A stretch of 64,000 bases of DNA from positions 124,001-188,000 of the forward strand of contig SAXG01000014.1 in assembly GCA_012932865.1 (NCBI GenBank). Direction: 5' to 3'. The notes under the pieces are model-generated. The model was not told the origin of the DNA, made no database searches, and worked only from the letters and a program-made list of their open reading frames with translations. The DNA is from Amylostereum areolatum. Lineage: Eukaryota; Basidiomycota; Agaricomycetes; Russulales; Stereaceae. The position numbers were made by a program, and so were the translations under genes. Shown piece by piece: positions 24,990-43,915 of the stretch (positions within the stretch are counted from its first letter, which is position 1; the number at the start of each line of letters is the position of its first letter).

Positions 24990-25643
24990 GGTTTTCCCGC
25001 CCGCTAGTTCCCATCCTTTACCTTGTTCACATTGCGATTCAGATGGAACGCGGTGCGGACATGAAGGAGGTAAAGTCGAGGTGGTCGTGGTTTCTCGTGA
25101 CGGTGCCGATCTTGGAGCGAGTGCGTCGTTGAATCCGAAGCAGGAGCGTGCCATGTGCATGTAAGGCTGCCAGAGGCTGGATGGCCCGCGTGGAGGAAGT
25201 GGACTCGAGGAATGTTCCAGTGAGGACAGATTTTATGCGAAATGTTATAGTTAGGATTGCATAATCAAATAAGTGCGCTTTCGCTCTCTCGATCTCTCGA
25301 ACAACTTCAAAGTCAAAGAGCGGATGGAGGATGGTCGATGAAACTGAGAAGAGCGGGGTACAGTATCGCGGGCCGCAATCCGGCAGCTGCCGGTACAGCA
25401 ACTTTCAGCAAGGCTCCAGAGCTCCAGCACCCATCTCTCACTCGACCGGGCCCCGCGACGAACACCATCCATCCAACCCATCCGTATCATATGTCCCTCA
25501 GCGGTACGCAACAGGTACTGTTCATCATCCGCTTTCAAGCAGTCAAGCCTGACACTGACATCGCAAAGTGCACATCCCGGACGACCATATATGGCAGTGA
25601 TCTCCATACTATACAGGTCACTCGCGCTTTACATCCTGTGTGA
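24990..25643. other. Intergenic region; 3-bp target duplication at its right edge
   Basis: No gene seen. Bases 25641-25643 are TGA, matched by TGA at 41305-41307 on the far side of the KDZ element. Confidence 0.5.
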
Positions 25644-25669
25644 GTAACGGCTCGACCGCTTGCGGCCGC
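25644..25669 (+). repeat. Left terminal inverted repeat of the KDZ element
   Basis: Starts GTAACGG and ends GCGGCCGC. One mismatch (A versus T at position 4) with the reverse complement of 41279-41304. Confidence 0.85.
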
Positions 25670-26171
25670 ATATGAGAGGATTTTCCACCCCCCAGCGTGT
25701 TTCGATCCAAACGGCGCGGCCGCCCCCTCAGTTGTCTCCCAGCACCCCCTCTGCCGGTATCCGCTTCGCCAGGACCTCGGTCTAATTTACCATTCGCCAG
25801 GATGTCCTCGCTACACATCCCCTAGCCACCGCTCGCTAGAATTACTGTGTCGGTACCATGTATCCCATGTTTTATTTCCAATACATCCGTGTTACAAACA
25901 TGCTACCAAGATTTGAATAGGCTACAACAAATATACTATGACCAATAATGAACCCCTACACTCGGTGGCAGGCAATATGAAATCGTCCGTTCGAGATGAA
26001 CCCTCGGTAGGCGGAGTGGTCTGCCGAACCACTCATTCCTCGCAGTCGGCAGACCGCTCCACCTACTGAGGGTAGCCAATCATCCCAAACAGATGACTTT
26101 GTCTGTCCTCCCGCCGCGCTAAAACCTCCCCCAGGAAACTACAAGCGAAAACAACACTGTACCGAGGAATC
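25670..26171. other. Left subterminal region with a large hairpin (26001-26072)
   Basis: No gene. Arms 26001-26027 and 26046-26072 pair at 24 of 27 positions around an 18-nt loop; both arms end in the element motif (GGTCTGCCGA / TCGGCAGACC). The outward sequence, GGGATGATTGGCT then GAATGAGTG, recurs at the right end (41171-41229) with similar spacing. Confidence 0.6.
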
Positions 26172-27462
26172 CTACGTTCGGGACCGCTTTCTGTCTCGAC
26201 CCTCTTCCCTGATATCCTCCACTCCACTAACATACCGGGCACGCATCAGAGCCACCAGCTCCTCCTTCATACGATGCAGGGTATTCTCATCTTGGGTGAG
26301 GACACTCAGCATGTGGTCGTACGTCTTCAGGTTCTGAGCAATCCGCCGAGCGTCTCGGTAGATGCTCATCCACGCCGAGGTAAGCTGAGGACCGGCAGCG
26401 TCCATGACATCGTCCGGTAGGGCTGGAGCCTCGGGAGAGCGATCCAGGAAATTGAGCCACTCTTGATACGATTCGTGCTCTGCCGGATGGTCAAATCCAT
26501 ACCCGTCGGCAGCACAATCAAAAAAAAACTCACCTTGCAAGTTGGATCCCTCCAATGCCGCGTCCAGGGTGCCGTTGGAGGGTTCGGCGGCGGTAGGCCA
26601 GGATTCTGAGAGTTGTTAGATCAACAGGTGAAATACGCAGGGTCCACTCACCGTTTGCAAGCCCATCGGCACGCTCCTGCCGACCCACCCTGAAGGATGG
26701 CCGACCGCTGACCCCTGTCACCGAGTCGTCCCAGGACGCGCGTGGCTTTGAAGCCTTCATCAGAGCAGCGTGCTCGGGAGACAGGTCGGGGTCAGACCTC
26801 GTCAGGATCCCCCGGGACGGGGTCGCTTGTCGGTTGCGAATCCGCGGTCGAGTGGGGGACATGGGCGGCACAAGAGACTTGGGCGGTGAGGACGGGGCAG
26901 AGGGGAAAGTCCAGCCCCCGGCCCCAGGCCTTGATCCTGCCGAGGCATTTGTTTCAGGCGGACGCCGGATGACGTAGCATCCCACAGAAGGCCCAGGCAT
27001 ACCAGCTGCTGCCGAGGAAGCGGGGTCTAGCTGCCCAGAAGCATCTTCGTCTCTTGCATCTGGTGGGGGCCGCCGAAAGGTAAACACCGTGGGAGGGGAG
27101 GTAGAAAGGGAAGAGGGGGGAACATGTTGAGGTGGCCGGCGAATTGTGAAGGCGGGATGACGTATGCGCCGTGCCGAGGCCTCCTCGGCAGCTGGCATTC
27201 CCTCAGGTTCGACCTGTTTGTGAGGCCCCTGCATTGTGTATTGGACGGGGTGAGGGGATGGCTGAGAGGGAGCGGGTCGCCGGATGGTGAACTGCGCGGG
27301 GGTAGGGTTTGGGGAAGGTACCGGAGAGGTGTTCATACCTCTCGCCAGTTCTTCGGTTTCAGGCGGTGGGCGCCGAATCACGTACCGAGGGGGAGGGACA
27401 CCAGGTGAAGGAACTTCATGATCAGGAGGCCGACGAATGGTGAAGGGGGTTGAGGTGGGCAT
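26172..27462 (-). CDS. KDZ-element gene A: protein with repeated [FY]xIRRPP motifs
   Basis: Exons 26652-27462, 26534-26605 and 26172-26479 on the minus strand, introns 46 and 54 nt, 1191 nt = 396 aa. The N-terminal ~170 residues hold six copies of an aromatic-x-[IF]-R-R-P-[PA] motif (FTIRRPPD, YVIRRPPP, FTIRRPAP, FTIRRPPQ, FTFRRPPP, YVIRRPPE) plus one degenerate copy, in Pro/Ser-rich linkers. This looks like a disordered, repeated short linear motif, perhaps a docking site. The C-terminal ~120 residues are helical (YQEWLNFLDRSPEAP.., RMKEELVALMRARYV) and end in a basic RDRKRSRT. The second intron could also be read through, being a multiple of three. I know no family for it. It is divergent from gene B with 364 bp between them. 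Confidence 0.6.
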
Positions 27463-27826
27463 GTTTGGGGTGAGGCTTTCGGTGGTCGACGTGGCAGGTG
27501 GTGGACGGAAAATAAGTCGCGTGAAGATGCAGAGGCAAGACTTCGCCACGTGACATAACATATGCCGATCCGAGCCTAAATCATTCCCTTTTCTGGCACC
27601 GTAAGCGACAACACGTCGAAGTAAGCAACGTGTGCCTGAGTTCGGCAACAATCTGTCAAGGCTGCCGAGTACGGTGAAGTTGTCAAAAGTGTGTTTGCTC
27701 GCCCGATTGTTATCAGTCCGGGCCCGCACCGGACCCATCTGCCGAGCGGAGTGCAAATGTCTCTGCCTTATACTTTACAGTTTTGAACCCTCTCTGTTCT
27801 GCCCCCATCGCATCATTTTCCTCACC
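27463..27826. promoter_or_regulatory. Divergent promoter region of KDZ-element genes A and B
   Basis: 364 bp with CTGCCGA copies at about 27665 and 27736. No clear TATA box. Confidence 0.4.
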
Positions 27827-30646
27827 ATGTCCGCCGCCGCCACGAGCAGAGCATGGGAAGCCTTCGCCAACCGGGGCTCCCTCATCATCAACCGTGTAAC
27901 GGCCTACCGAACGTACCGAGCGTGGCTCGCACTCAAGCACGCTTCGCCAGAGGTTCGTTTTAAGTGGATTGGGATGTTTGTGGAGGAATGGGTGCGTCTG
28001 CCGATTGTCTCCCGTTTTCAGATCCTCATTATATCCACAGCATCGTGCAGCGGAACCGCAAAACTGGCACAAGTTCGTTCGCTACGTCTACGACCAAATC
28101 TGCAACCCTGGAGAGGGGGATACTATCACGGCAGATGTCATGGCGAACCGATTCGCCACCGCCCCCCCTTTCCTCGATCAGCCACCAGAGGAGATTGCGG
28201 ACCCGGGCCCAGATCAGTGGTGGATAGCGCTCGGTACGTCGCCGCCAACTGATCTTATCTCATTCGTCTCATGTTTACTCCAGAAGAGTCCGCCGATCCG
28301 GCACTCCAGCCAACGGGTTCACATTCCCGTGCCCCGCGGGCCATCGATGCCGCCTCCGCGACTTCACCATCTACCGACCCCCCAACACGCGGCCGTCGCC
28401 ACACTCGGGACAAGTCTGTCTCTCGCACCCCCGCTACCCCGTCTCGCCCTTCCCGCCAAAGGTCAACCACGCCTAGGCGCAACATCAGCAAGGCGACAGT
28501 GGAAGATTCCGATGAAGAGGACAACACTCAACAACAGGCACAAGATCTGCCGAACGAGGACGCGGACGAGGACGCCGAGGCAGCTGGCGAGAAAGGCAAA
28601 GGTTCCGGGAAGGCCAAAGGCAAGAGGCACCGGGCGCAGGTCACCGGACCCATCGACCCTCCCGACGACCAGTCTGCCGAGCACCTTGCCGATCTTGTCG
28701 AGCGCAAAAACAGGATGTGGAATACCCCGCAGGGCGAAAACTACGTCTACAACGACGTTCGGCAGCATCCTGAATGCTGGGGTTTGCACCCAGACCACCC
28801 GGCACATGAGGTACGTCCCGTACCGATCTCCTCCGCTCCATTTCTGTCAACTTACCGACTTACAGGAACCTTGCACAAACTGTGAAGCAGGCGACTACCC
28901 CTGCTACTGGGGTGTCTCTGGTTCTTGCAGCCCCTGCAGCCTGCGCAATATCAAGTGCAGCCACAACAGTGCCGCAACGTACGCAGCCCTCCACCGAGGA
29001 TGGCATTGGAACGAGGATCGTCGCGGAGCCTTCGTCCGCAGGCTCACCGAGACTGGCAGGCTGACCGAGGAAAGCCTGAAGGCGCTCTCGGCAAGGTTGA
29101 CTCAGCCGGTGCTCCAGTACCCAGGTAAGAACTCTTTGCATGCTCGGTACGAATTCAACTAACATTACCTCAGAGTTTTCCGAGCAACCGATGCCCACCG
29201 TCGCCGAATGGCAAGGCCAGGGCCAGGCAATGAGCAAGGCGAAGAAGACCGCGTCGAAGAAGGCTGCCGAGGAGAAGACCACATCGAAGAAGGCTGCCGA
29301 GGAGAAGACGACTGCCGAGGAGGCGAAGAAAGCTCCCGCTAAGAAAGCGGCCGCTAAGGCTAGCAAGAAGGACAAACCGCCGAGCCGGGCAGCCTCCAAA
29401 CCTCCAAAGCCTCGCCCTGTGCCGACCGTTGAGATGCCCGATAGGACTCCTGCCAAAGGGGCAAGATCGGCAGCGTCGTCATCTCACCAGGCAGACCCCC
29501 CTCGTGCTATCGTCCAGCCTGCGCGTCCCGGTGAGTTTCTTCCCCGACCCCCTCACCGTTAGTATTCCATGCACATCCTCCCCAGTCACTTGCTAATGAT
29601 AGATTATTCTAGCGAAACCAGTAGTTCAAGACGAAGATGATCAGGACATCGACATGGTGGACCAGCTGCACCCCTCCAGCTACGGCCCCCCCTCGCAAAG
29701 TCCTCCCCCAGCATCAGACGTACCGACCCCCGCCCGTGTTTCCTCCATCTCCTTCCCCCGAGCCAGCACCTCCGTCCCCGCTCCCACACCAGGAGTCGTT
29801 CTCGACACAACCGCCCTCGCCCAGATGCTATCGCCATTGCTGTCGGCACACGAGGCTCGCATCGTCAAGATTGTGGAAGATGGCGTCCGGGACGTTCGTC
29901 GGCAGGTCGAGGGCACGAACGCAAAGTTTGCCGAGCTACAAGCGACCATGGCCGAGTTGCAAAACGGCCTCCCTTCTCTCTTGCGCCAGTCCGTACCCCC
30001 CGAGATGGCAGCATCCCAAGGTCAGGCTCCCGACGGCAGCAAGGTTCAGGAAATCTTCGAGATCGTGGAGGCGATCCACGAAAACGTCAAGAATCTCCAT
30101 GTCCTCGTTGTCGACAAATCCCACGAGCAGGTAGACCGGGACGACACGTCGAAGGAAGCCTTGGAGAGCCTCGACAGGCAGCTTGACACGGCACTAGAGA
30201 GTCTTGCAGCCCTCGGCAGCACCGCCGAGAGATTTGCCACTGCCGACCAGGTCAAGGCGTTCCGGACTTCCCTCTCCCAGGACCTCGCCGACTTCCACAC
30301 CGCTACATCGACGAAGCTCACAGACGTGACCCAGGCCACGGACGCGCTGGCGACTTCAACGAGGAAGTCATTCCTCTCGGCTGCTGACGACTGGCAGAAG
30401 GTCTCCCAAGCTATCACAGGCCGGATCTCAAGCCAGGGGAACATGTTAGAGACGTCGGCACAGCAGCGCCAAGCAACTGTCGTTGCATCCTTGACAGGAA
30501 TCACCCAGCAGCTCGTCCAGATCTTCCTCGGCAACATCCCCAATCAGGTCGGGAATCAGGTAGGGGCGTTTGGGGTGGACGACCCCATGTGGCAGGCCAT
30601 GCAGCAGCACCAACAGCAGCAGCAGCAGCAACAGCAGCAACAGCAG

Positions 30647-30687
<41 letters not shown>

Positions 30688-31504
30688 CCCCGCGCCTCCT
30701 CCCGAACCCGCTGCCCAGGGCAACTTCAACCTTATGGACTTCGAGTTTGACCCTAATTTCCTGCCGATTTCCCCTCGGGACGATGCCTTCACGCCTCCCC
30801 AGTCCGGTCCCTCGACCACCGCCCCCCTCCTTGGCTTGCAACCCAAGCAACCCTTGTTTTTTGACTCCTCATCCTCTCCATCGGCTCCCTCTCCAGCTGC
30901 CCCCTCACTCAGCAAGGCTACCTGGGGACCCCAGGCCGAGGGCTTTTCAGACGGCGATGACGGACCCAACTTGGCACCGGCAACTCGCCCGTCCCGAGAA
31001 GGATCCCTTCGTCCATCCCGAGAAGGCTCGATTCGCCCGTCCCGTGAAGGTGGTTCTCGCCAGGGCTCCGAGCATCGCTCGGTCGCGTCTCACGTGTCGG
31101 CGCTCACTATGTCTACCGAGGATGAAGGCGGTGCACGGGTGCCTGCAAAGCGCAAGCGTGTGGGCGAGGACGCTGCCGAGGACAAGCATGGCGGATTATC
31201 CCCCGCATCTTGGGCCGCCTTGAGTCCTGAGGAGCGCATGATCATTGAAGAAGACCCCGAGGCGGACATGCCTGAGCTTCCCAAGAAGGCAAAGAGGGGA
31301 GGCAGCACAGGGAGGGGGGGGAGAGGCAAGGGCAAGGGGAAAAATACCCCCAGCAATGCAGAGCCTGCACTAACTCGGCAACAAGCTCAGAAGAGGGGAG
31401 AAGACCCCGTCGCAGGACCATCTGGCTCTGCAGAGCCGTCGGCATCTGTCACTGCACGTGGGCAGAATAAGCCAAAGAGTGGCAAGGGCCGGGGAGGAAA
31501 TTAG
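27827..31504 (+). CDS. KDZ-element gene B: large protein with Cys cluster, polyQ and basic tail
   Basis: Exons 27827-27991, 28041-28233, 28284-28810, 28866-29124, 29174-29530 and 29613-31504; 3393 nt = 1130 aa with all frames closing. An N-terminal ~120-residue helical region has FKWIGMFVEEW and PDQWWIAL. Next come a Ser/Arg/acidic linker and a cysteine cluster near residues 296-326 (CTNCEAGDYPCYW..CSPCSLRNIKC), probably zinc-binding and loosely like fungal binuclear clusters. Lys/Ala-rich repeats (KKAAEEKTT) follow. Residues ~550-800 are predicted coiled coil (LRQSV.., VQEIFEIVEAIHENVKNL). Then come about 25 glutamines, three RPSREGS repeats and a Gly/Lys-rich tail with KRKR. It is likely nuclear and nucleic-acid binding, by inference. 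Family unknown. Confidence 0.65.
30611..30685 (+). repeat. CAG/CAA repeat encoding polyglutamine
   Basis: About 25 consecutive CAR codons inside gene B, mixed CAG and CAA, which would slow expansion. Confidence 0.85.
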
Positions 31505-31767
31505 ATGGTATGTCGGCTTCGGTAGGTTACGCTTTGGCGTTGGGATCTTGTATGCTTTCATCCATTTTTCTCGGTAGTGTCTGGCTACCCGTCTTGTATC
31601 GCCTGCCGGTTGGGGTGTTTGGTTTCCATACTTGTACTTCGGGTTTTGCTTGCGCGTGCGCGTGTTACTCGGTAGCATTGTGCTACCGAGGTGTATTATT
31701 TATAGGCCCGTACATATACACAAATAAAAATGGCCTTTACAAGTTTTAATGGAGTGGGCTTAGTCTC
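31505..31767. other. Convergent 3' region between KDZ-element genes B and C
   Basis: 263 bp. It contains TCGGTAG-type words at about 31522 and 31576 and a small inverted pair, CTCGGTAGCATTGTGCTACC, at about 31669. An AATAAA lies near 31722 on the plus strand. Confidence 0.4.
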
Positions 31768-34700
31768 TTAAGTCCTCTTCCTCTTCCTCTTCTTCTTTTG
31801 CGGCTCTCCTTCCACACCCTCGGCAGGAACTGCCACTTTCTTCGGCATGGGTTTTGGTTTTGGCCTTGGCTTTTTCGCTGCCGCCTGAGGCCTCCTTTTA
31901 TTGATTTCTTCGTCCCCTAAGAATGCAGACATCCCTACCTGGGGAATGTGATCGTCATCTTCAGGATTATCTGGCTCCTCCTCATCATCGTCCCCCTCCT
32001 CCCCAAGGTCCAGGTCGACAACCGTCCCCTTCCGTCTCTTTGCCTTCTCGGCACGGTTGATATTTACCCTGTCGGCAACCTGAGCCTGCCGCTCCAAGGC
32101 AATGGCTCTAGCTCGGTCCCCCGTTGTCTCACCCTCATTTAATGCTGCTGCAGCGTCCTCCACGCTTGTAGTGGATGCAGAGACATTGATGTTCGCCGGG
32201 ACTCGAATGCGACGACGATGTACCGGGTCCTTCGGCAGGGGGGGGAGAATTTGCCGAAGGTCGGCAAGCGCCGTCCCTGCTGCCGCCTCCAAGTCCTGCA
32301 GTGTGTCGGTCTGCAATAGCACCGAAGACGAGAGGATCTTCTTTGCGTGATCGCTAATCGGGACAAACGTGTGGGGATGCTCTTGGTAGTCCTTCACAAG
32401 TTGGCAGTCGGCAGCAGCAAGCCCGAGCTTGAGGGCAAAGGAGAGAGCCACCTCCCGAGACACCGGCTTATTATGTTGGACGACTTGTTGAGTGTCCATG
32501 TCATTGAGAAACTGCCGGAGCTTGTACATGTCTTTATGCAGCAGGTCAGGTAAACCTCTTCTTGGCCATGAGAATGATCCCCACGCCCTCGGCATAGGTA
32601 GAGAATCTCTCTGGTGCGGATTGTGAACCTGCCGGATGTTAGACGTGGTTGCAGAACATAAGGCGCTGGACACTTACTAGCTGTCGGCAGATTATGGTAA
32701 TCAGTTCTTGGTAGTTTTGATCGTCCCACAAACGTCGCATGAACTTGATTCTGGACTCGCTCGGTGAACGCTCGGTGATGGAGATGCCGGGCCAGGCGTA
32801 ATAATCCACCACCACCTGAATGTCGTCTGCCATGGCACCGAAGACCGCGTTAAGCCAGGTTTCTTGTCGCTCGGTAGGGTTGAATGTTGAGCTGCCAATG
32901 GCCCCCTTCCAAACAGGGTGAGGGGGGTACAGCGTGCCAGGTGGATCGTTCATAAGCTCTGCCTTGGCCTGGTAGCAACGCGCATACAGCATGCCGAGGA
33001 GGATAACATCCCAAGCCTGGCGAAAGCCAAGGAAGATATGTCTCTCGCCAGCCTCACGCTTCCACGGATCTTTGTCCAGCCATTCCTCCAGTCTCTGTAA
33101 ATGTTCGCCATTCTCTTCCAGATACATTGGCGGTAGCCATGCTTTCACCCATGTCCAAGTTAAAGGTGCCTGGATGTTTGGATCCAGCGCACCATGGGGC
33201 GTGTCTACACTCGACAGCTAGTACATGTTAGATTCTGACATCTTCCCCTAGTAGAAAAACACTCACAGGTAGACATGCGAGTGTTTCGGCAGCACGCTCA
33301 AGCTCGGGCACTTCACCCTGCAATGTGTCTCTCACCCAAGTGAGGTATGCATTCGGAGTGGCCAGCACGGATACGGGGGGGACACCCGGCCAGTCTGGGT
33401 TGACAGGCATCCTAGCGAGAGGGAGAAGGTCGGGAGCCTCGGCAAGGCCAGGCGCAAGCTCGGGATCGCCAGGGTCATGGACTTCCTCGTCATCTTCGAC
33501 ATCCTCCCACTCATCGCTATCGGCAGGGGTCTTCTTTGAGACTTGTTTTGGTGTCGGCACAAACTGAGAGTGCCAAAAGCACTGATGGTCGGGGAGAGGT
33601 TCGTAAATTTGGTCCTTGTCGTAGTACGCCTTCATCGTAAAACCACCCCGAGAATGGAAGTGCCAGAAGAGAGCGGTCTTCTCCGCGATCCACATCTTCT
33701 CGGGGTCCTGTATGACGACCCGCTTACGCACCCCCTTGCAGATCCAGTAGGGAATGTCTTGTTCATTGAAGAAGGTGAAGGTCTGATCACGGAGCAATTT
33801 CCATGGGGGTTGTATATGTTCGTTATCGCAAAGGACGGCTACCGAGGGGGGTTAGAGCGTAATTTGCACACTGAGATAGATGAAAACGTACCGACGCCCT
33901 TCTGGATTGCATGCCTCAACCACCGATTCAACCCTTTGTTTTTCTTCACCTTGGCGAAGTCCACCTCGGCAGGAATTGTGATTTTCTTTCCATCATGTGT
34001 TATAGGGATGGGGGACTCTTGCGGACCCAGCTGGGGCTCGGGGAGTTTGCCGTCTAGTTCGTCTGATATCTCGGTCAGCCTTGCTCGGTACCATGTCCAT
34101 AAGGGGGGCTCACTGGTCGCGTCCTCGATGAAGTCGTCAACCTTTTTGAATAGGGGTTTCAGAGAGAATATTTTCTTGAACGGCTTTTTTGAGAGGCCAA
34201 GCTGGACTGAAAAGTCTATGCTACCGGACAGGCGCTTGAGTTAGAAACTAGGGCACAGAAAGTTAATGCTCACATGTCTGCTTTCCCCTCCAACTCGGGA
34301 TCAACACCATACAGCACAAACGCCCATACACCGATCTCACGTGCGCACCAAGTGATGAATTCACGGCATGCATCACGGAAAAATCGTCGCAGTCGCCTAC
34401 TGAGGTTGCTTGGTACGGTGCGAGGGACGAACACTGCGAACCTTTGTTTTACCTTGCGAGGCGGCCCGACTCTGTTCCAAGTCTTTGCCAGCGCAACCAA
34501 GGCTTCATACTCCCCGTCCGGCAGCAGTCCTAATCCCCGAGTGATGCCTGTTTGATATAGTCGGAGATACGCTCCCGATGGGGGGATAGCATCCTCGTCA
34601 ATGGCTTTGATGACCTCGTCGAGATGCTGCTTGAACAGAGCGCCGTAAGCTGTTCTCACTGTCCACCTTCGAGTCGACCGAAGAAAGGTTCGGATCTTCG

Positions 34701-35075
34701 CCACACGACCGTGCTGCGAGAACCACCGATTGACTGCCTGCCAAGCTGTCAATATACGCGAAGGTCAATGAAAGACCAGTCATCACTCACATCCTTAGTT
34801 CTACCGAGCAATTCTTCCTCCGCTTCACTCAGATCCTCATCGTCGGCATCCCAGTCCCATCCCGGGTGAGTAACCTCCCACACTCGGGGGAAAAATGTCT
34901 TGATCCAGGTTGGTCGGCCGGCAGCTGGGGTGTCGATGTATGCAGTGATGTTTTTACCCATGAGGTCGAGCATGGCCACTGTGAGAAGTGGGGCAGGTCC
35001 ATGAGGGCCATTGGGAGTGAGGGAGGTCTCGGCAGCGTTGGGAGGTCCAGGGGGAGGATTCTGGGCGCCTGACAT
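31768..35075 (-). CDS. KDZ-element gene C: unknown 1016-aa protein
   Basis: Exons (minus strand) 34791-35075, 34274-34737, 33892-34220, 33267-33838, 32678-33217 and 31768-32628; introns of 49-53 nt, 3051 nt in total, frame closes. Notable segments are a short N-terminal acidic region (WDWDADDEDLSEAEEE), then AVNRWFSQHGRVAKIRTFLRS and a globular middle with many Trp and Tyr (PLWTWYRARL, WKLLRDQTFTFF, QCFWHSQFVP). A region with RQAWDVILLGMLYARCY follows, and an acidic patch then a strongly basic tail (KKKRKRKRT) that should direct it to the nucleus. Three of its 3' splice sites are TCGGTAG or CCGGYAG. No catalytic motif recognised, and no H-x-D motif of 2-oxoglutarate oxygenases. It lies upstream of the transposase's 3' end, same strand. 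Confidence 0.65.
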
Positions 35076-35280
35076 GGACACTGTGGTAGCGTTGTTGGGA
35101 AGAGCGGAAGAGGAAAACAGATCCCGGTCTATTCAGAGCCTCCATATAAACAGAATAACACGTTGGGACCACGAGGTGTCCCTAGGGGTCTAGACATGAA
35201 ATCTTGGTAGTAGGTACAGCCGGTATCACTTATACAGGGAGCAGGTGCACTCATCGATAACCAACTTATCTCAAACCATC

Positions 35281-35537
35281 ATGACCACCCCCACCAACCC
35301 CAAAGTCCAAGAAGCTCAAGTCTCGCTGGTGCCTCAAACTCAGGGGAGAACAACTCCAACGGTGCAATGTTTGTGATTCCTACCGAGAAAGTCCTGCCGA
35401 GCCGAACACGTCTCTAATTGCGCGTCTTGCAGGTTTTTCAAATGTCCAAATCTGCGGAATGGGGTAATGAAGGGCAGGAGTCGTTTGTAGATACGGTGCC
35501 TAATTCTCGTACCGAAGGTCGATTGGGGGTAGGGTGA
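35281..35537 (+). CDS. Possible small two-exon gene, 61 aa
   Basis: ATG at 35281, exon 1 35281-35361, a 71-nt GTGCAA..TTGCAG intron with a CTAAT branch-like site, exon 2 35433-35537. The peptide is hydrophilic (MTTPTNPKVQEAQVSLVP..). It lies between genes C and D on the other strand. Coding support is weak. Confidence 0.25.
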
Positions 35538-35740
35538 CTTTGTGCGCCTTGCCCTTCGACAGAATGAATGTGAGACAACTTTGGAATTTCGAGCTCTTCG
35601 GTCTTCAGAGCTGCTGGAACCAAGGCAGGCTGTGTTAGAGCAAGGGATGTTGCAATCAAATCTACCTCAACGACATTCACCCCCTGGCAGCACGTTCATC
35701 TCGTACCGAGGCATGGGAACGAGCTAAACATTCGAGAGAT

Positions 35741-38700
35741 TTAATCTACGTCGTGAGGATCCCAGTACCGAATAACCCCGGGGCCAAGCTCGCCATCAAA
35801 TGCGGTACGGGCTCTCTCGGCATACTCAGTCCAATTCGCCATCATCCTCTCGGCAGTGCAGATGTGTCCCGGGGCTTTTGGGTGAGCTGACAGCATTGTG
35901 TCTCGACGGCCTTCCCACTCCTTCGCCAGAAATCGGAAGCTGGAGTAGGTCATACCCATTTCTGCCTTCAAGATGATAATCTCCTCCTCCACTCGGTCTA
36001 GAGACATTCTAGTCTCCAGCCACTTTTTCTTGAAGACTAGAGAATTCGTCAAGCGCATCCATGAGACAAAAAGAGGTACCAACATTCGCCAAGGTACTGA
36101 CTCTCATCTGAATCGCTAGGTATATCCATCGTCCAAAACCAGGCGAGATTCATTTTCCAGCTCATGGGATCGTTTGGATCGATACTCCTGGTTGAGATGA
36201 GCATATCTTCTTTTTTCATTGCCTGGAAACGTTCTTTCTGTGCCGAGGTCCAACCCAATCGCTCCATGTCTTCTCGGCAGCATGCATACTGCTGCGCATG
36301 CAGCCGGACCGTCTTGTTGAGGGAATGCACGGCATTCATACCCCGGGTGTGTGACGAGACCCCTCTGGCAACATTCTGCACTTTGCGAATTGCCACTCGA
36401 TACTGGTTGGCTTTGTCGACCAAGCCAAGACGGATTTGCTGCAGGTGGTGGTCGGCACTCGTTTCCCGAAGTCGGAGCTCCATGTCAGCAAACTTTCTGT
36501 GATCAGGGTTGTCGCACCAGGTCTTGCCTCGTGCCGAAGGAATATCAACGGCTCTGTACTCTGGCTGCTGACCCTCGGCAGAAAGTGTTGCTGATACCGA
36601 GCCCCATTCGTCCTCGGTATGAAGCTTCCGAAGGCGAACCGTATGAAGACGGTTGGGCGGGTGTCCAAGTCGCTCCCTGGCCATCTCGTTATGTTTTTGC
36701 ACCTTGGTCGCCAGCTTATGACGCCAGAGGGCTACATTGGAATGCTCTCGCTCGGTATCGGGCATCTGACTGACATAAGCCTGGAGCTGGAGCCTGGCAA
36801 AGAATTAATGTCTGCCGAACATAGTTTGATGATGGACTCACTGCTCTTCTTGGAGGGCAATCCCCTCAATGATGCATTTCGCATCGCCAGGGTTCTCGCT
36901 GTTGCGAACCTCCTCAGAGATGAGCTCAATCTCAACTTCCTTTCGAGATACGTCTGCCGACATGTTAGCAAACTGAATGGACGTCCTGAGCTCGGGGGAA
37001 GCATACATTTTATATTCGTCGGCATAAACTTGTCCATGGACTTGGGGTCTTTCAAGCGCTCCTGCATCGCCTGCCGAATCTCTTCTGTCCAGTCGGCAAT
37101 CTCCTCTTTGGTAATTGTTTCGTCAAGCTTGGCGAGGGCCTTCGTGCGCTGGCGAAGTACCTTCTGAGCCTTGCGCCATTTGCGGATGAGGGTCGGGACT
37201 GAGACAGTGAGCCTAGATATCAAGACAGAAATATAACCTACTCATCTGGGTCATTTTCTTCCAATTGCTGTCATTCATGTGAGCGTTGAGAGTTTCCGCT
37301 CGGTTCGCCAGCGACATCATTCGGCAGCATGTAGAAATCAAGTTGAGCAAAGCCCAGAGGGTTTCCAGGATTTCGCCATCAATCAGTCCTATGCCTGGGA
37401 TATATAGAGGATAGAACCGAGGGTGGCAGACATTGACGTGGGCATATATGTGCCAGATGCCGACGCCTTGAAGAAACACTTCAAACTTTGGCAGGTTGAG
37501 ATGTGGTGACTTGCCGATGCGCTTGGACAGGTTGATGTAGTGCTGGCAGGCTACATCATAGAGGTAGATTGCCCGGAGTATTCCCTCCATCTTGTGGTTC
37601 AAGGCATGCGTTAGGGTGTAGTCCATGTTCGCTTGCCTAAACTTTATCAGAGAGAGATAAAATGACGAGAACAAGGCACATACTTTTCGCCTTTCTGCAG
37701 GTCACAAGCGCAGTGTGGCACAAAGCACCCGTGCCGACCACAGGCGGCAGCCGCGAGACCTGTTACATCCAGGTGTTTCTTGTCAGACTTCCCTTTGTGC
37801 TTGCTCGCCGTGTGGTCATGACAATCCGCTTTCTCCCAAGTCTACCGACAATGAAGTAGGTTTCCACGTAGCGACTAAAAGCTTACCGGGTCATCTTCCA
37901 CTGCCACAGCGAGGTGCTCCTTGTACGGCCCTGGCGACACCATGAAGCCATTGCCAGCCGTCCAGTCGATATCATTGCCCGGCACATGGGACTTGACATG
38001 CTGTGCACTCATGTTCGCATCCATGGCTACCGAGCGTATGAATTTCCACCTAGAGGACAATGTGAGCTCCTCTTCCAGGAGGTGGGTGAGGAACTTACGA
38101 ATCTGGCTCCTTCTCCCACCCCGGGAACAAGTTCACTCCTACTTGAGGACAGGTAACACAAAACCAGGCCAGCTCGCCATTGGAAGGTCACTTGAAGATT
38201 AGAGTGTGTGCAAACCCAAACTGTTGCAGATTCCCGAGGTCGAGCCACTGCCGACGGATCCTCAATAGCTCGATCAGCCGAGTCTACCGAGAGTCAGAAT
38301 CTGCTACCGAGACGTGGAGAGAAAGAAAATACCTTTGTTGTGTTGGGGGCTTCAGGCTTCGTCACTCGTCGAATCTTTCGCATGTATGCATTTGTAACCG
38401 TCTTGCACTCGAGGTTGTCTAACTGTGCATCGTCGAGACACCGAAAGGTGAATGCGGTCTTCGGCACGTCTTGACTTGCCGGGTACAGTCCGCAGGAAAG
38501 AAGTTGGCGATCCTCTGGCTCCCGAGGAGGTCCGCAAACACAGAAGCGCACACCAATATGATGCAAGCCTGAAGGGTCGACAAGCACCATGACTCTATTT
38601 TGAAAAAGGTCTGTCGTTGGCGCTTCATTGTTCGGTATGGGACCGTCGGTGGTATCTCCCTCCTTTGCATCCGCCTCAGCCTCGACTTCGGCAGCATCCT

Positions 38701-39640
38701 CGGTATCATCGGCAGGATCCTTGGCGTAATCGGGGGGCTCGACTGGTACGCGAGGGTCATCAGGGTCATCGTCATCGTCAACAGTGAGGCCCTCCTCTTC
38801 GGGAACAAGGGCGCACATTGACAAATCCTTAAACGCTGCTGACGAGGATGCTGCCGAAGATGTGGCCGAGGTATCCCAAGAGCCCTGGATTTGAACTTCA
38901 ACCTGTTGGGAGAGCTCGGGAATTGGATTCATAGGACATTCGTCTCCGTCGTGGCCCACACAGATGCATACTCCAGCATCACGGAGCCAGGCGGGAGCAT
39001 AGAACTTACCATTCCACCTTTGTACTCGGTGGAAGGGCGTGTACACATGGGTTTCCTGAAGGCAGAAAGAGCACATGTGCCGACCGCGAAAGCAGTTGCT
39101 GCATCGCCAAGTTGCCTCGTGATTTTTGCACCGTCGGCAGAGCTTGTCCGGGGGAGGGGCATCTCTTTCAACAATCTTGTGAAGGTACGAGGCCTCTACG
39201 TCCAGCCACTCTCGCATATACATGACTGATGTCTGCCGAGCATCCCTGTCAGATGAATCTTAAGGCATACAGCCCAAGCTACGCACCTTTCCTTGTGTGC
39301 TCGTCTCCCTAACGCCAAAGTCCTCCTCATCATCCCAGTAGTTGTCAACGAGAAACTCCTGTGGAATCCCATACGAGTCAACGGGAGGCAGGTGGGTAGG
39401 GCCTGGGGCGGACGGTCCTGCCTGGGATGGGCCTGCCTGGGACGGGCCTGCCTGCGGCTGTGGAGAGGCCTTCTGGGATCGTCCACGCTTTGCTTTTGGC
39501 TTGTCGTCCCAGGGTATCAACTTCTCGGCTTTCTTGGACTTAACCCTGGTTTTGATACGAGCACCTCTTGAATTGTACGACTCTCTCTCGCTATATTCGC
39601 TAGAGGAGGGGGACTCGCGGCGACTTCGATTACGACGCAT
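35741..39640 (-). pseudogene. KDZ transposase with one nonsense codon and one 1-nt deletion
   Basis: Exons (minus strand) 39287-39640, 38333-39232, 38099-38283, 37887-38049, 37684-37841, 37242-37636, 36842-37198, 36102-36793 and 35741-36036. Coding length is 3500 nt; restoring one missing base near 37025 gives exactly 1167 codons. A CxC2-like cysteine cluster lies at ~150-215 (LCRRCKNHEATWRCSNCFRGRHMCSFC). The KDZ core keeps the expected acidic residues: AMDANMSAQH, LYDVACQ and DGEILETLWALLN. Further zinc ligands CVTCPQ and HGCFVPHCACD and a C-terminal coiled coil are present. Lesions: an in-frame TGA at 38187-38189 (residue ~450, plausibly from CGA) and the frame change between MDKF and ADEYKMYASPE. 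It should excise and insert the element; as read it is inactive unless recoded. Confidence 0.85.
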
Positions 39641-39727
39641 GGTTTGACAGAAGAAGGGGGGAAAGGGAAAGGAATAACTGAAATTAGGAAGGTAAGGTAT
39701 ATAGAGACTTCAGGCCAAGGCACAATA

Positions 39728-39889
39728 CTATCTGCTATCGATGTAAGAAATCTCCGACATAAGACCATTGTGGATAGGGGAGAGAGCAAGCTGTGTGTGG
39801 CGTAGCCAAGATGTGGCAGCATATATCTCGGCAACATGAATGAATTCTTCGTAGGAGGGGTCGAGAACGATGGTGGCAACGGTTGACAT
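39728..39889 (-). CDS. Possible small ORF, 53 aa, upstream of the KDZ transposase
   Basis: ATG at 39889 to TAG at 39728-39730 on the minus strand (MSTVATIVLDPSYEEFIHVAEIY..). It lies in the 5' leader region of the transposase gene, so it could be an upstream ORF or an unspliced exon. Its ATG overlaps the divergent promoter of gene E. Confidence 0.3.
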   Translation of the reverse strand: MSTVATIVLDPSYEEFIHVAEIYAATSWLRHTQLALSPIHNGLMSEISYIDSR

Positions 39890-39927
39890 GAGTGCAAGTG
39901 GTCAAGAGAGAGGTCTGCAATCCGATT

Positions 39928-40888
39928 ATGAGAAGTGTTCGGGAATTGCCTGGTGTCCCGAAGGGCTGGGCATTTGTCTTATGTCCCGAGCATTTCTGTC
40001 ACATCTGCCACATCACGCCCCTCTGCTTTCCTCCCTCCATGGCATCCCCTATTCCGCCTTCTGTGTCCCAATCCTCCTTGATCGAAATGTGTGCAGCGGA
40101 TATGGTTGAATACCTAGGTTCTCGGATAGGGCAAGCAGCTCGGTGGTTATCCGAAACCTCGTCCCGACGGTGTACCGACGAGGATCCCGAGAGTGGTGAC
40201 TTCAAAAGTGCATGGGATCATGATCCATACGTCAAAGTTTGTGTACAACATGAGCTGGTGGGTCGTTCTATGTGTTTCTGGAATGTTGGCTTACCTGTCT
40301 TAGAACCTGATCATGACAGTGATCGGGGTAGCACACATGCGAGGAATGGCCCTTCAACCAAATCAAATTGTACGGAATGCTCATCAATACCTGTCTTTCG
40401 GGGGGGAACCGGGCTTGTGGAGCGACATCCCTCGCCTTGCCCTTGAGCTGGGAGAGCCCCCGGAGGCGATGGTTGTTCTGCCTGGGTGGTGGTTTTTTGC
40501 GGAGGCCGGGAAGACGTACGATGCAGTGGATGGTTTCATCGAGTTCCTGGAGAACGCGATGCTTTCGGTACATTTGCTTTTCCTTGGGCGACTCGTAGCT
40601 GACATTGTTCAGGACCCTGGGTTGGATGGGCTTGAAGAATGGCTTCAAAGGGCTGAGGCTCTTCGCACCGCCATCATAGAGGTTGCCGAGGAGGTGGGAG
40701 AGCAGCGAGACTGGGCTGTTGAGCAACGGAAGGACTATGCCGAGCGTTTGGCAAAGGTCACACTAAGGTGGAAAGTCGTGGCGAGTGCGATGGCTGAAGT
40801 CAAGGCGACGGCAGGTAACTCAGGTGGTAAACTGGGTGGGGACGGGGATGTGGAGATGGAGGACGGTACGAGCTCCATTGTTTCATAG
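39928..40888 (+). CDS. KDZ-element gene E: unknown protein with coiled coil
   Basis: Exons 39928-40257 and 40304-40888 with a 46-nt intron (GTGGGT..CTTAG), 304 aa. The N terminus has CPEHFCHICHITPLC, a possible small zinc site; if that part is untranslated, the next ATG (40039) gives 267 aa. The middle has a Trp-rich segment (GWWFFAEAGKTYDAVDGFIEF). The last 100 residues are helical and charged (LEEWLQRAEALRTAIIEVAEEVGEQRDW), ending acidic. No family recognised. It is divergent from the transposase. Confidence 0.55.
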
Positions 40889-40973
40889 CTACTTTGGAAG
40901 ACAGAGTAGTTTCTATTTCGGTGTGGCGAGTGTAACAAAAGTGAAAGTGTACCGAGTGGCGAGGGTACAAAAG

Positions 40974-41153
40974 CGTACCGACGGGGGAACACGTACCGAC
41001 GGGGGAACACGTACCGACAGGGGAACACGTACCGACAGGGGAGTGCGTACCGACGGGGGAGTGCGTACCGACAGGGGAGTGCGTACCGACGGGGGAGTGC
41101 GTACCGACGGGGGAGTGCGTACCGACGGGGGAGTGCGTACCGACGGGAAAGGG
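40974..41153 (+). repeat. 18-bp tandem array at the right end of the KDZ element
   Basis: Ten units of CGTACCGACRGGGGARYR, nearly perfect, each carrying TACCGAC. The last unit is degenerate. Confidence 0.85.
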
Positions 41154-41172
41154 AATCCTAACGAGGGGAAGG

Positions 41173-41236
41173 GATGATCGGCTTCGGTAGTTCTCCCTAC
41201 CCGATCATTTGGCCACTCCCGAATGAGTGTCGGGAG
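41173..41236 (+). repeat. Two adjacent hairpins in the right subterminal region
   Basis: ATGATCGG pairs with CCGATCAT, with an inner GGTAG/CTACC, from 41174 to about 41208. Then CTCCCGA (41216-41222) pairs with TCGGGAG (41230-41236). The blocks GGGATGATCGGCT and GAATGAGTG match the left subterminal region in the same outward order. Confidence 0.6.
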
Positions 41237-41278
41237 AGAATAGAGATCACGTGGGGTTGTACCTGGAGGGGGGGGGCA

Positions 41279-41304
41279 GCGGCCGCAAGCGGTCGAGCCG
41301 ATAC
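41279..41304 (-). repeat. Right terminal inverted repeat of the KDZ element
   Basis: Plus strand runs GCGGCCGCAAGCGGTCGAGC then CGATAC. Followed by TGA (41305-41307). Confidence 0.85.
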
Positions 41305-41826
41305 TGACGAAATATGTACACCTGCGGTCCTACATATCTATCTAAGGTACCCTACCATAAGGTGTGCCCGGACAGCGAAGACTCAGACACCACTGATGCC
41401 AGCGAGGCTGTTCACGTCAGGCTTCAGGTTCAGGTTCGTCTTGTATCCTGTCATCCATCGGAATGCTTGCGTATCGGCACTGAGACGGCGCATGGTCCGT
41501 GCACAGATCAGAGCTGTCCGCCTCTTTTCTCCATCGACTCCACTTCTTTCGGACCACCACCGTCCTTGAAGATCTAGCAAAGCACCATGAACACATGTAG
41601 TAGGTCAACCGGTGATTCTATGGTCTGCGAAATAGATTGAGATCACCTTATCTTGCCAACTCCAGGTGCCGGCCACTGTCAAGGTGGTGTACAAGGTAAG
41701 TGTTTCTGTTGTCCACGCCGTACCACTCACTCATCCAGCTGCTTTCGCTCAGAGAAGACCTACAATGAACCAGAAGACAGGTTCTGGTCACTGTATCTCA
41801 CAGATGCTGATAAGAACGATGCAGAG
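41305..41826. other. Region upstream of the DUF6535 gene, probably holding short 5' exons
   Basis: The frame EKTYNEPEDRFWSLYLTDADKNDAEM runs into the annotated start from about 41755, which is typical of DUF6535 N termini, so coding starts further upstream. A GTAAGT donor at 41697 and CATCCAG acceptor at 41740 suggest an intron. I could not fix the start codon. Confidence 0.45.
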
Positions 41827-43915
41827 ATGACGGAGAATATGAAGGGCGACACGGACGGGCTGCTCATATTTGTGCGTATCTCGAATCAGCGAAGCGGAAG
41901 GTGGGCTCATCAGTGAACATGCACAGACGGGTCTTTTCGCGGCGATAGTCTCTGCGTTCATCATCGAATTCTACAAGACGCTCAACTCCGATCCAGGCGA
42001 TACCACTGTCACTCTCCTTTCCGACATCTCCTCCCAGATCTCGGCGGTCTCGAATGGCACCCAGGCGCCAAGGTCATCCTTGCCCGGATCCTTCCACGTA
42101 CCCCCTGCATCCGTTCGCATCAATTCGCTGTGGTTCATCAGCCTGTTTCTCAGCGTATACGTCGCGCTCGCGTCGACCCTCGTCCAGCAATGGTGCCGCC
42201 GCTACCTCCGCGCCGCACGTAGACGGGGTCCTCCACATAAACGCGGTCCTATCCACGTGGTTGTCTCCAAAGCAATGAAGAGGTTCCACATCAAACATGT
42301 TGTCGAGGTGATCGTCGCCTTGCTCCACATTTCCGTATTCCTATTCCTCGGCGGACTCTTGGATTTCCTGTTCATCATCAACCCGAGCGTCGCGCACGCG
42401 TTCATTCCCTTCATTGTGAGCGGAGGGTTCGTGTACTTTGGTCTTACCATACTTCCCTTCTTTTCCCCCTCGTCGCCGTACGACACCCCTCTTACCCATC
42501 TGGTCCGTGTCTTCATCGCTGTTTTTTACACGGTGCTGTCCGTGGCGCTGTTTACCGCGCAGCATGTCAAAGCAGCTGCTATGCGATGGTCTTCCGACTT
42601 CGCGATGCCCCAAACCTCCCCATCCATCCTTGCACAATGGGCATCTCATGCACGGCAAACCGTACCTCGCCTTTATCGTACACGGAAGCGCGTCTTGGAG
42701 GACCTCGGACGCGTGCCTTCCCAACAGAGTGCCGAGTACGCGCTCCGCATCACCCTCAAGGCTCTCGATGAGGAGTGGGAAACGGAAGAGTTCCTCGCCA
42801 GTCTCCCCGGGTTTTTCGACAGTGCCTTCGTAGGGGACGGCGTGGCGCCGGATCTGGTCGTGTACTTGATCCAACACCAGTCCCTCGTGGATCGCATGCA
42901 CAACCTCATATGGACCTGTCTTCCGTGGCGTGGCTCCTCTCAGCTTTCGGAGGCAAGGACAGTTCGTCGGATCCAGGCCATCCTCGGCACATTGCAGGAC
43001 GGACTCGCCCGCATCATGAGATCACCGATAGCGCTCGATCGCCTCCTCGCCATGGACGAGGAGCTTCAAGCCGGTGTTTTTCTCTCAGAGATCGTCGACA
43101 CCGCCAGGATGATCTCCAACCGCCCCGGTACGGATCCCTACCCGGCGCTGACGGCCACATGCGCGCTCGCCCAGCTTCGAGACACGATGATGCGAGGGAT
43201 GCCGCACCACGACGATGCGAATGTGTCGCCCAACTATCCAGCCAGCGTCGGCGAATCCTTCCTGTTCAAACTTCTCAAGAATATGACTTTGGACGACCAC
43301 CGGCCTGGAAGGATCTATTTCGACCCCTTGGACCCCCGCCTTCGATGGACGACCAGCACGAATAACGAGGCGTTCGCGCCCATCCTAGGCCATGGCGGGA
43401 GGTATGCAGAGGTGACAATGCGACGCGGCGGATACCTGGACAACCTCAACTGCTTCATCCGCAGAATATGGCCCGTCGTTCGCCGTCCAGATCCCGTCCC
43501 TCAAGAGCATTTCGATAGCATCCTCTGGACCCTGCGCGTCCTCTGCCGCTCCGTCCGTTCCGCATATGGCGAAGAGCACGGTGTCCTGTGGCAAGACGGC
43601 GTAGACCACTTCACCTCACTCTGGACGGGTATCGTCGGGAAGCGGGACTCTCGAAACCGATCTCGCAATGGCGACAACGAAGGCCCTTCGGAAAACGCTC
43701 TGCAAGGCAATTTCTTCGACGAATTGCAGGAGGTCGCCGTCCTTTTCCTCCCTCTCGCCACCCTCCGTGTAAGCAGGGCCCTTTCCGATCCCACAAGCTC
43801 TGGTGTAGGGGATCCTGAGCGGGAGGTTCGCGAAAGTGGTCTGGAGACGCACGAACACAGTGGAACTACGAACCAGGATGGTTATCCTCTACAGAGATCA
43901 GAAGCTACAGGGTAA
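41827..43915 (+). CDS. DUF6535-family membrane protein
   Basis: Exons 41827-41871 (5' end uncertain) and 41927-43915, intron 55 nt (GTGCGT..CACAG). From the in-frame ATG at 41827 the product is 677 aa. The DUF6535 domain is at the N terminus (GDTDGLLIFTGLFAAIVSAFIIEFYKTL) with membrane segments near residues ~16-34, ~85-110, ~155-205 (two) and ~220-240. The C-terminal ~400 residues are soluble, with PYPALTATCALAQLRD and RRGGYLDNLNCF. The function of the family is unknown; it is common in Agaricomycetes. Intact in this reading. A decapitated paralogue is at 23677-24989, on the other side of the KDZ element. Confidence 0.75.

Follow-up and report, generated by a model that had tools for sequence, protein, structure and literature searches.

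Genes and borders of the element

The 64,000-bp stretch of the Amylostereum areolatum genome analyzed here (hereinafter, the window; G000:C45:124001-188000) contains a mobile element of the KDZ type that encompasses five predicted genes, A to E, and is filled from border to border with a short DNA word, T[A/G]CCGA, which differs from the word that pervades another KDZ family in the same genome. The searches for homologous loci and for additional copies were performed in this one genome (57.1 Mb in 182 contigs). We denote the family of the window element F1, its diverged relative at C128:666-671 kb F3, and the family represented by a stretch on contig C100 F4; for F2, F3 and F4, one stretch each was examined that was not delimited as an element. 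The coordinates of all features are given in Table 1.

The product of gene D is a KDZ transposase, as already recognized in an earlier, sequence-only reading of the locus, and contains both the KDZ domain (PF18758; 87.3 bits against a cut-off of 26.6, E = 1.5e-24) and the CxC2 cysteine cluster (PF18803; 75.3 bits against a cut-off of 27, E = 5e-21). The same reading described four further spliced genes with a total of about 2,850 residues and without recognizable families; our models of A, B, C and E, which are approximate, being predicted from DNA with 22 modelled introns over the five genes, add up to 2,807 residues, and among the open reading frames (ORFs) and models scanned, D alone reached a Pfam cut-off, with none reached by A, C, E or residues 1-828 of B (the last 299 residues of B lay outside the model scan). 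The Pfam matches of E to TniQ (0.17) and of B to Baculo_PEP_C (0.11) were dismissed as chance. The best match for exon 2 of E in a PDB search had an E-value of 0.026, and a protein homolog search with C gave no matches among the 8,000 candidates scored, in a collection that may include few fungi. The Zn2Cys6-like cysteine spacing of B is also present in F3, and an alignment of E from F1, F2 and F4 includes 19 invariant columns. Protein A contains the peptide FTIRRPP/YVIRRPP several times over.

Table 1. Features of the KDZ element in the window (window coordinates)
Feature	Coordinates	Strand	Basis
Complete element, 15,784 bp, GACCATATATGG...CCATAAGGTGTG	25583..41366	.	Outward alignment of copy ends, uninterrupted site
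Target-site duplication CCCGGAC, left copy	25576..25582	.	Copy comparison, uninterrupted site
Target-site duplication CCCGGAC, right copy	41367..41373	.	Copy comparison, uninterrupted site
Left subterminal inverted repeat, 26 bp	25644..25669	+	Repeat search, genome copies
Right subterminal inverted repeat, 26 bp	41279..41304	-	Repeat search, genome copies
T[A/G]CCGA / TCGG[T/C]A, 131 sites dispersed throughout (71 on the forward and 60 on the reverse strand)	25583..41366	.	Motif count
Gene A, 2 exons, model of 414 aa without a Pfam family; relative detected in F3 only	26172..27462	-	
Gene B, 6 exons, model of 1127 aa; relative detected in F3 only	27827..31504	+	
Cysteine cluster of B, C-x2-C-x6-C-x7-C-x2-C-x6-C, Zn2Cys6-like spacing	28872..28958	+	Zn_clus sub-threshold, E 0.029
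Gene C, 7 exons, model of 999 aa without a Pfam family; recurrent next to KDZ genes	31768..35075	-	
Gene D, 10 exons, model of 1091 aa; KDZ transposase with CxC2	35741..39640	-	Pfam
Junction of absent 2,312 bp (gene F and TET/JBP gene G in C1:2739413-2757467)	39798..39799	.	Copy alignment
Gene E, 2 exons, model of 267 aa without a Pfam family; recurrent next to KDZ genes	40039..40888	+	
Tandem array with 9.7 copies of an 18-bp unit; GTACCGA in the consensus	40973..41147	+	Repeat search

The 26-bp inverted repeats with one mismatch that had been noticed at the locus are indeed present but do not mark the ends of the element, which the sequence-only reading had placed at 25644 and 41304. The 22-bp core of the repeat has 14 genomic sites (13 exact and one with a single mismatch, compared to none for the reversed-pattern control), which make up five inward-facing pairs and four unpaired ends. 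Outward alignment of these sites showed that 61-62 bp outside the 26-bp repeat are common to all six A ends and all eight B ends, and that the flanks diverge beyond this point, so the repeats are subterminal. The exception is a flank common to C69 and C128: the end copy on C69 and the copy at C128:31300 (L034 and L022, respectively) have about 740 bp, flank and end together, in common at 95% identity, which makes C69 a probable allelic contig, and both haplotypes are seemingly present in the assembly. Each of the five paired copies is bracketed by a perfect 7-bp target-site duplication (TSD) of its own (CCCGGAC in the window, and GGCGGCT, ATCGAAC, AGACCTC and TGCAATG elsewhere). The TGA triplets seen on both flanks of the repeats do exist, but in every copy they are element sequence, not a duplication.

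When the flanks of the window copy are joined with one copy of the TSD, the result is identical at 190 of 190 positions to G000:C154:138268-138457, which is presumably the empty allele of the window site on the other haplotype; this uninterrupted site, found through the empty-site comparison that had been proposed as a check, yields borders other than those first read from the sequence, an outcome that the sequence-only reading had itself named as a refutation. Junction-spanning empty-site matches were detected for all four copies tested, of the five paired ones (the C128 copy was left out). The insertion site of the C14 copy has an uninterrupted match over 180 of 180 bases at 99%. For the C1 copy, the site aligns in full (180 of 180 bases) with C115 at 98% identity and with another part of C1 at 86%; this copy therefore resides in a repeated sequence, and either an allele or a paralog could account for the 98% match. 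The C161 copy is inserted in a repeat, and its uninterrupted junction is found at 99% in six places (query bases 46-180). The uninterrupted sites in the same assembly show that F1 moved recently; the window copy differs from the majority of nine copies at 18 of 13,643 non-CpG positions.

Compared to the 18-kb copy on C1, the copies on C14, C128 and C161 include additional DNA, 7,518, 26,194 and 29,123 bp, respectively. Giant elements of 25-47 kb were considered and rejected because this surplus is foreign to the 18-kb copy; it includes 7.5-kb stretches with 459-bp terminal repeats.

A DNA word dispersed throughout the element

The word T[A/G]CCGA (TCGGYA on the opposite strand) is present at 131 sites in the 15,784 bp of the element (8.3 per kb), compared to 53 sites in the 48,216 bp of the rest of the window (1.1 per kb). 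Its density is about even along the entire 15.8 kb and amounts to 7.3 per kb in coding sequence, 11.4 in introns and 10.9 in intergenic DNA, the most common context being a CTG triplet before CCGA and a G after it. The best 6-mer in the element has a z-score of 18.8, against 3.3-4.5 in three 15-kb blocks and 3.7-6.7 in nine 5-kb blocks of background, which for the motif counts came mainly from this window. Codon usage is rejected as the source of the word by comparison with synonymous-codon shuffles: all five genes, with sites on both strands, exceed 500 of 500 shuffles, at 5 to 6.5 times the mean (9 sites against 1.7 in A, 26 against 5.0 in B, 20 against 3.1 in C, 26 against 4.3 in D and 4 against 0.8 in E). 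The word also tracks the borders of the element in the longer copies, with densities of 7.75, 7.28 and 7.52 per kb in the element DNA of the C14, C128 and C161 copies, and 0.40, 0.76 and 0.89 per kb, respectively, in their non-element DNA. A tendency of the sites toward even spacing is weak in F1 (P = 0.043) and absent in F4. Six of the 22 modelled introns (five in D and one in C) end in TCGGYAG, so that the word doubles as the 3' splice site.

The nine F1 copies diverge chiefly by C>T changes at CpG: outside the motif, 353 of 2,027 CpG positions are variable compared to 174 of 15,099 non-CpG positions, a 15-fold difference. No selection on the motif was seen among these nine copies. Given that CpG decay steadily removes the CpG-containing word, the density of the word appears to have been maintained in the transposing lineage.

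The TET gene missing from the window copy

The sequence-only reading reported neither the dispersed word nor the 2,312 bp that are missing at 39798/39799 relative to the C1 copy (18,055 bp). Gene G within the missing segment is similar to Tet_JBP (E = 9.5e-7, below the cut-off, for the partial exon searched), and its closest solved relative is CcTet of Coprinopsis cinerea (PDB 8jkk and 7vpn, E about 8e-8, with HRD aligned, over part of G only). AG-type TET/JBP dioxygenases have H-x-D and a distal histidine in one frame. In the C1 copy, the HRD (H-x-D) is present, and the downstream distal-histidine stretch FSGYFVLHGV lies in another frame, so that the gene may not be intact in this copy. By coordinates, TET is located within the borders of three of the five paired copies (C1, C14 and C161), lies near the unpaired end on C94, and is found in F3 at 70% identity; the presence in F3 suggests loss from the window copy rather than initial absence. 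In the C128 copy, 924 of the 2,312 bp are kept, with no TET match there. The full element is a TET-carrying, Kyakuja-like KDZ transposon (see below), and the window copy derives from it by lacking the TET gene and gene F.

Words in other KDZ families

The F3 relative encodes A, B and C proteins that are 27-53% identical to those of F1, with 46-59% identity in the aligned DNA, and carries the same word at 5.0 per kb with a synonymous z-score of 7.1. In the aligned coding DNA, there are 38 sites in F1 and 25 in F3, three of these in the same column; the alignment indicates that most of the sites turned over while the density stayed high.

In the TET-carrying F4 stretch, the prominent word is a different one, CGGYGA, at 8.4 per kb against a background of 1.6, with a synonymous z-score of 12.7. 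TCGGYA is only at the background level in F4, as is CGGYGA in F1. Two further F4-type loci harbor CGGYGA (L012, z = 13.6, and L014, z = 8.1); L016 (z = 9.7) lies inside the F4 stretch itself.

A private motif in every TET-carrying KDZ family is a notion that we had to reject because F2, F5 and F6 have no clear word. In F2, other words come out on top, with a z-score just above the three 15-kb controls, and CCCCGG shows a weak synonymous excess (16 against 7.1, z = 3.5). Although CCCCCGG in F2 and CCGCGG in F6 are enriched over background counts, F6 and F5, each seen over 5 kb, fall within the 5-kb controls in the stricter test. In five short KDZ loci for which no TET neighbor is listed, the best-word z-scores were 4.7-6.3, none clearly above the controls, which for loci of this length (3.4-3.6 kb) were not size-matched. 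The TET-carrying KDZ locus L044 (C95:2226001-2231000) contains 12 occurrences of CCGCGG over 5 kb; this number does not exceed the control range, but CCGCGG is possibly another private word.

Recurrence of partner genes beside KDZ transposases

Homologs of C were found at 14 loci outside F1, 12 of which have a KDZ gene within 15 kb and 13 a TET gene within 20 kb. Within the same 15 kb, KDZ lies near 14 of the 15 loci with E homologs and near 21 of the 27 TET loci. These counts leave out F1 itself and refer to KDZ loci among the matches listed, at least 105, and to E loci with E-values up to 1e-3 (two weaker rows, 0.006 and 0.036, were left out); the proximity to KDZ expected by chance is about 5.5%. 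Conversely, among the 105 listed KDZ loci, TET is near 24 and a C homolog near 12 (within 20 kb), so the combination of D, C, E and TET marks only some of the KDZ elements. Matches to D, C and E, along with TET, are found in the F2 and F4 stretches; A and B have no match in these stretches, and outside F1, they were detected (with the first 828 residues of B as the query) solely in F3.

As judged from these matches, a module of D, C, E and TET recurs among KDZ elements, with A and B assigned to the F1/F3 lineage. The earlier proposal of a multi-component transposition system, in which orthologs of all four additional genes would recur beside KDZ transposases, is thereby supported in this genome for C and E, but not for A and B, which outside F1 were detected in one diverged relative only.

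A possible function of the word

Our preferred, albeit tentative, reading is that the word is a putative dispersed self-recognition tag for element DNA. A DNA-binding component encoded by the element would read the word. The cysteine clusters of B (Zn2Cys6-like) and D (CxC2) are the candidates, and C or E may act as partners. Binding along the whole element would mark the element DNA, and TET activity, or an activating complex, would be concentrated on the tagged DNA, countering CpG methylation. Tagged copies, the TET-less window copy included, would be served in trans. Zn2Cys6 clusters typically contact CGG, and this triplet is contained in both the F1 and the F4 words.

In functional terms, such a system would be what anti-silencing by VANDAL/VANC is in plants, but in a fungus. 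VANDAL families possess family-specific short motifs that are bound by VANC (PMC5735166), and the likeness consists in a dense, family-specific short motif (TCGGYA in F1 and F3, CGGYGA in F4) and in the countering of DNA methylation, which for the fungal element is conjectural (PMC5735166, PMC10398659). The VANC motifs form mainly noncoding arrays in one orientation (PMC5735166), whereas the fungal words populate coding and noncoding DNA on both strands; moreover, the transposase and the host kingdom are different, and the fungal element encodes a TET-type enzyme. With greater reserve, we suggest that some TET-carrying KDZ transposons might have rebuilt their whole sequence, the coding parts as well, into a dense lineage-specific word array, with a DNA-binding protein of their own directing their TET or an activating complex exclusively to the DNA of the family. 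Conceivably, albeit with similar reserve, such an array is a private, co-evolving demethylation address system that arose independently of VANDAL/VANC.

Several observations weigh against the tag reading. The TET gene is absent or shortened in two of the five paired copies (those in the window and on C128). The similarity of B to Zn_clus is sub-threshold and, not being found in the F2 and F4 stretches, B could not be the sole reader; in F4, the reader would be D, C, E or another F4 protein. Unlike the VANC targets, the sites are not restricted to noncoding, one-orientation tandem arrays. Motif CpGs are not clearly spared (42 of 298 variable, compared to 353 of 2,027 elsewhere), which argues against local protection after insertion, and in the nine F1 copies, hexamers are kept at 753 of 809 motif positions (93.1%) against 8,535 of 9,288 controls (91.9%). 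The three columns shared by F1 and F3 exceed all 200 shift controls (mean 0.17, maximum 2), so that some of the sites are inherited. Finally, the TET-carrying F2 (z = 4.9), F5 (z = 4.1) and F6 (z = 5.7) are within or near the control range.

Among the alternatives, the one that fares best, although we consider it rather unlikely, is that the transposase or a partner binds the word throughout the element, in the service of excision, synapsis or strand-transfer immunity. Such a role would fit the CxC2 cysteine cluster of the transposase, the tandem array with the word near the right end, and the difference between the F1 and F4 words. The subterminal sites of other DNA transposons, however, crowd the ends, whereas the density of this word is about even over 15.8 kb, and F2, F5 and F6 have KDZ matches but no clear word.

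It is improbable that the word has no function and arises from biased mutation or repair, or from local duplication, even though C>T changes at CpG predominate in the decay of the copies and the motif sites are not clearly better kept than controls. Such decay destroys a CpG-containing word and does not create it; furthermore, the F1 and F4 words differ within one genome, the excess over synonymous shuffles extends to all five F1 genes, and F1 and F3 are both dense in the word yet have only 3 of 38 sites positionally in common.

Even less probable is the view, entertained in the sequence-only reading, that the element is a cargo carrier with A, B, C and E as passengers. The absence of Pfam families from A, C, E and residues 1-828 of B, the failure of A and B to find matches in the F2 and F4 stretches, and the presence of C near only 12 of the 105 listed KDZ loci would be compatible with cargo, but a KDZ gene adjoins C at 12 of 14 and E at 14 of 15 loci among the matches listed, the genes recur together, and the surplus length of the longer copies is mostly motif-free DNA. 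The word also pervades the genes themselves, suggesting that they have evolved within the element for a long time. A tyrosine-recombinase captain is the hallmark of Starship cargo elements, and none was detected in the ORFs and models scanned, a subset of all ORFs. Least probable of all is an action of the word in RNA, as a splicing or transcript-stability element: the introns that end in TCGGYAG (6 of 22) would agree with it, but the strands are about equal (71/60) and intergenic DNA contains the word as well, at 10.9 per kb.

A dense word that tracks the borders of the element, seldom occurs in nested DNA and is not the same in two families is a concrete, testable candidate for TET targeting; the TETs of transposons have been speculated to act without target specificity (PMC12730594). 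In addition, C and E are two recurring orphan proteins that can now be named beside the KDZ transposase.

Relationship to known transposons

Kyakuja are TET-carrying DNA transposons of Agaricomycetes with 7-bp TSDs (Kojima 2025, PMC12730594); TET dioxygenases are frequent passengers of mushroom transposons, and in Coprinopsis cinerea, 46 TET genes lie beside Kyakuja, as cited there. The F1 element resembles Kyakuja in the KDZ transposase, the 7-bp TSD, the absence of a long terminal inverted repeat (TIR) at the extreme ends and the CcTET-related TET/JBP gene, here in several copies (PMC12730594). Kyakuja termini are 5'-CA..TG-3' without TIRs, as stated for two Laccaria families (PMC12730594). 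The right end of the window element conforms (..TG-3'), whereas the left end is 5'-GA instead of CA, and because this terminus misses the published pattern, we file the element as KDZ, Kyakuja-like. The Zisupton lineage has an 8-bp TSD (PMC12730594), unlike the 7 bp found here in five of five copies. The dispersed motif and the partner genes C and E are not mentioned in the portions of PMC12730594 that we consulted, and KDZ elements with such a motif are not reported in the literature searched, mainly titles and the beginnings of abstracts.

KDZ1-3 of Cryptococcus are likewise mobile and encode a KDZ transposase with a cysteine cluster, at about 9-11 kb; they differ in having TIRs of 139-241 bp, TSDs of 8 bp (KDZ1) or 4-8 bp, and CxC1 (PMC12810828), and the consulted portions of that paper mention neither TET nor a motif for them. 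In Pleurotus ostreatus, the CxC2 cluster precedes intact KDZ copies, as it does in D (PMC7641404); TSDs, partner genes and motifs do not figure in the consulted portions of that paper.

Immediately to the right of the insertion, at 41843-43915 of the window, there is a 690-aa open frame with a match to DUF6535 (E = 1.1e-41).

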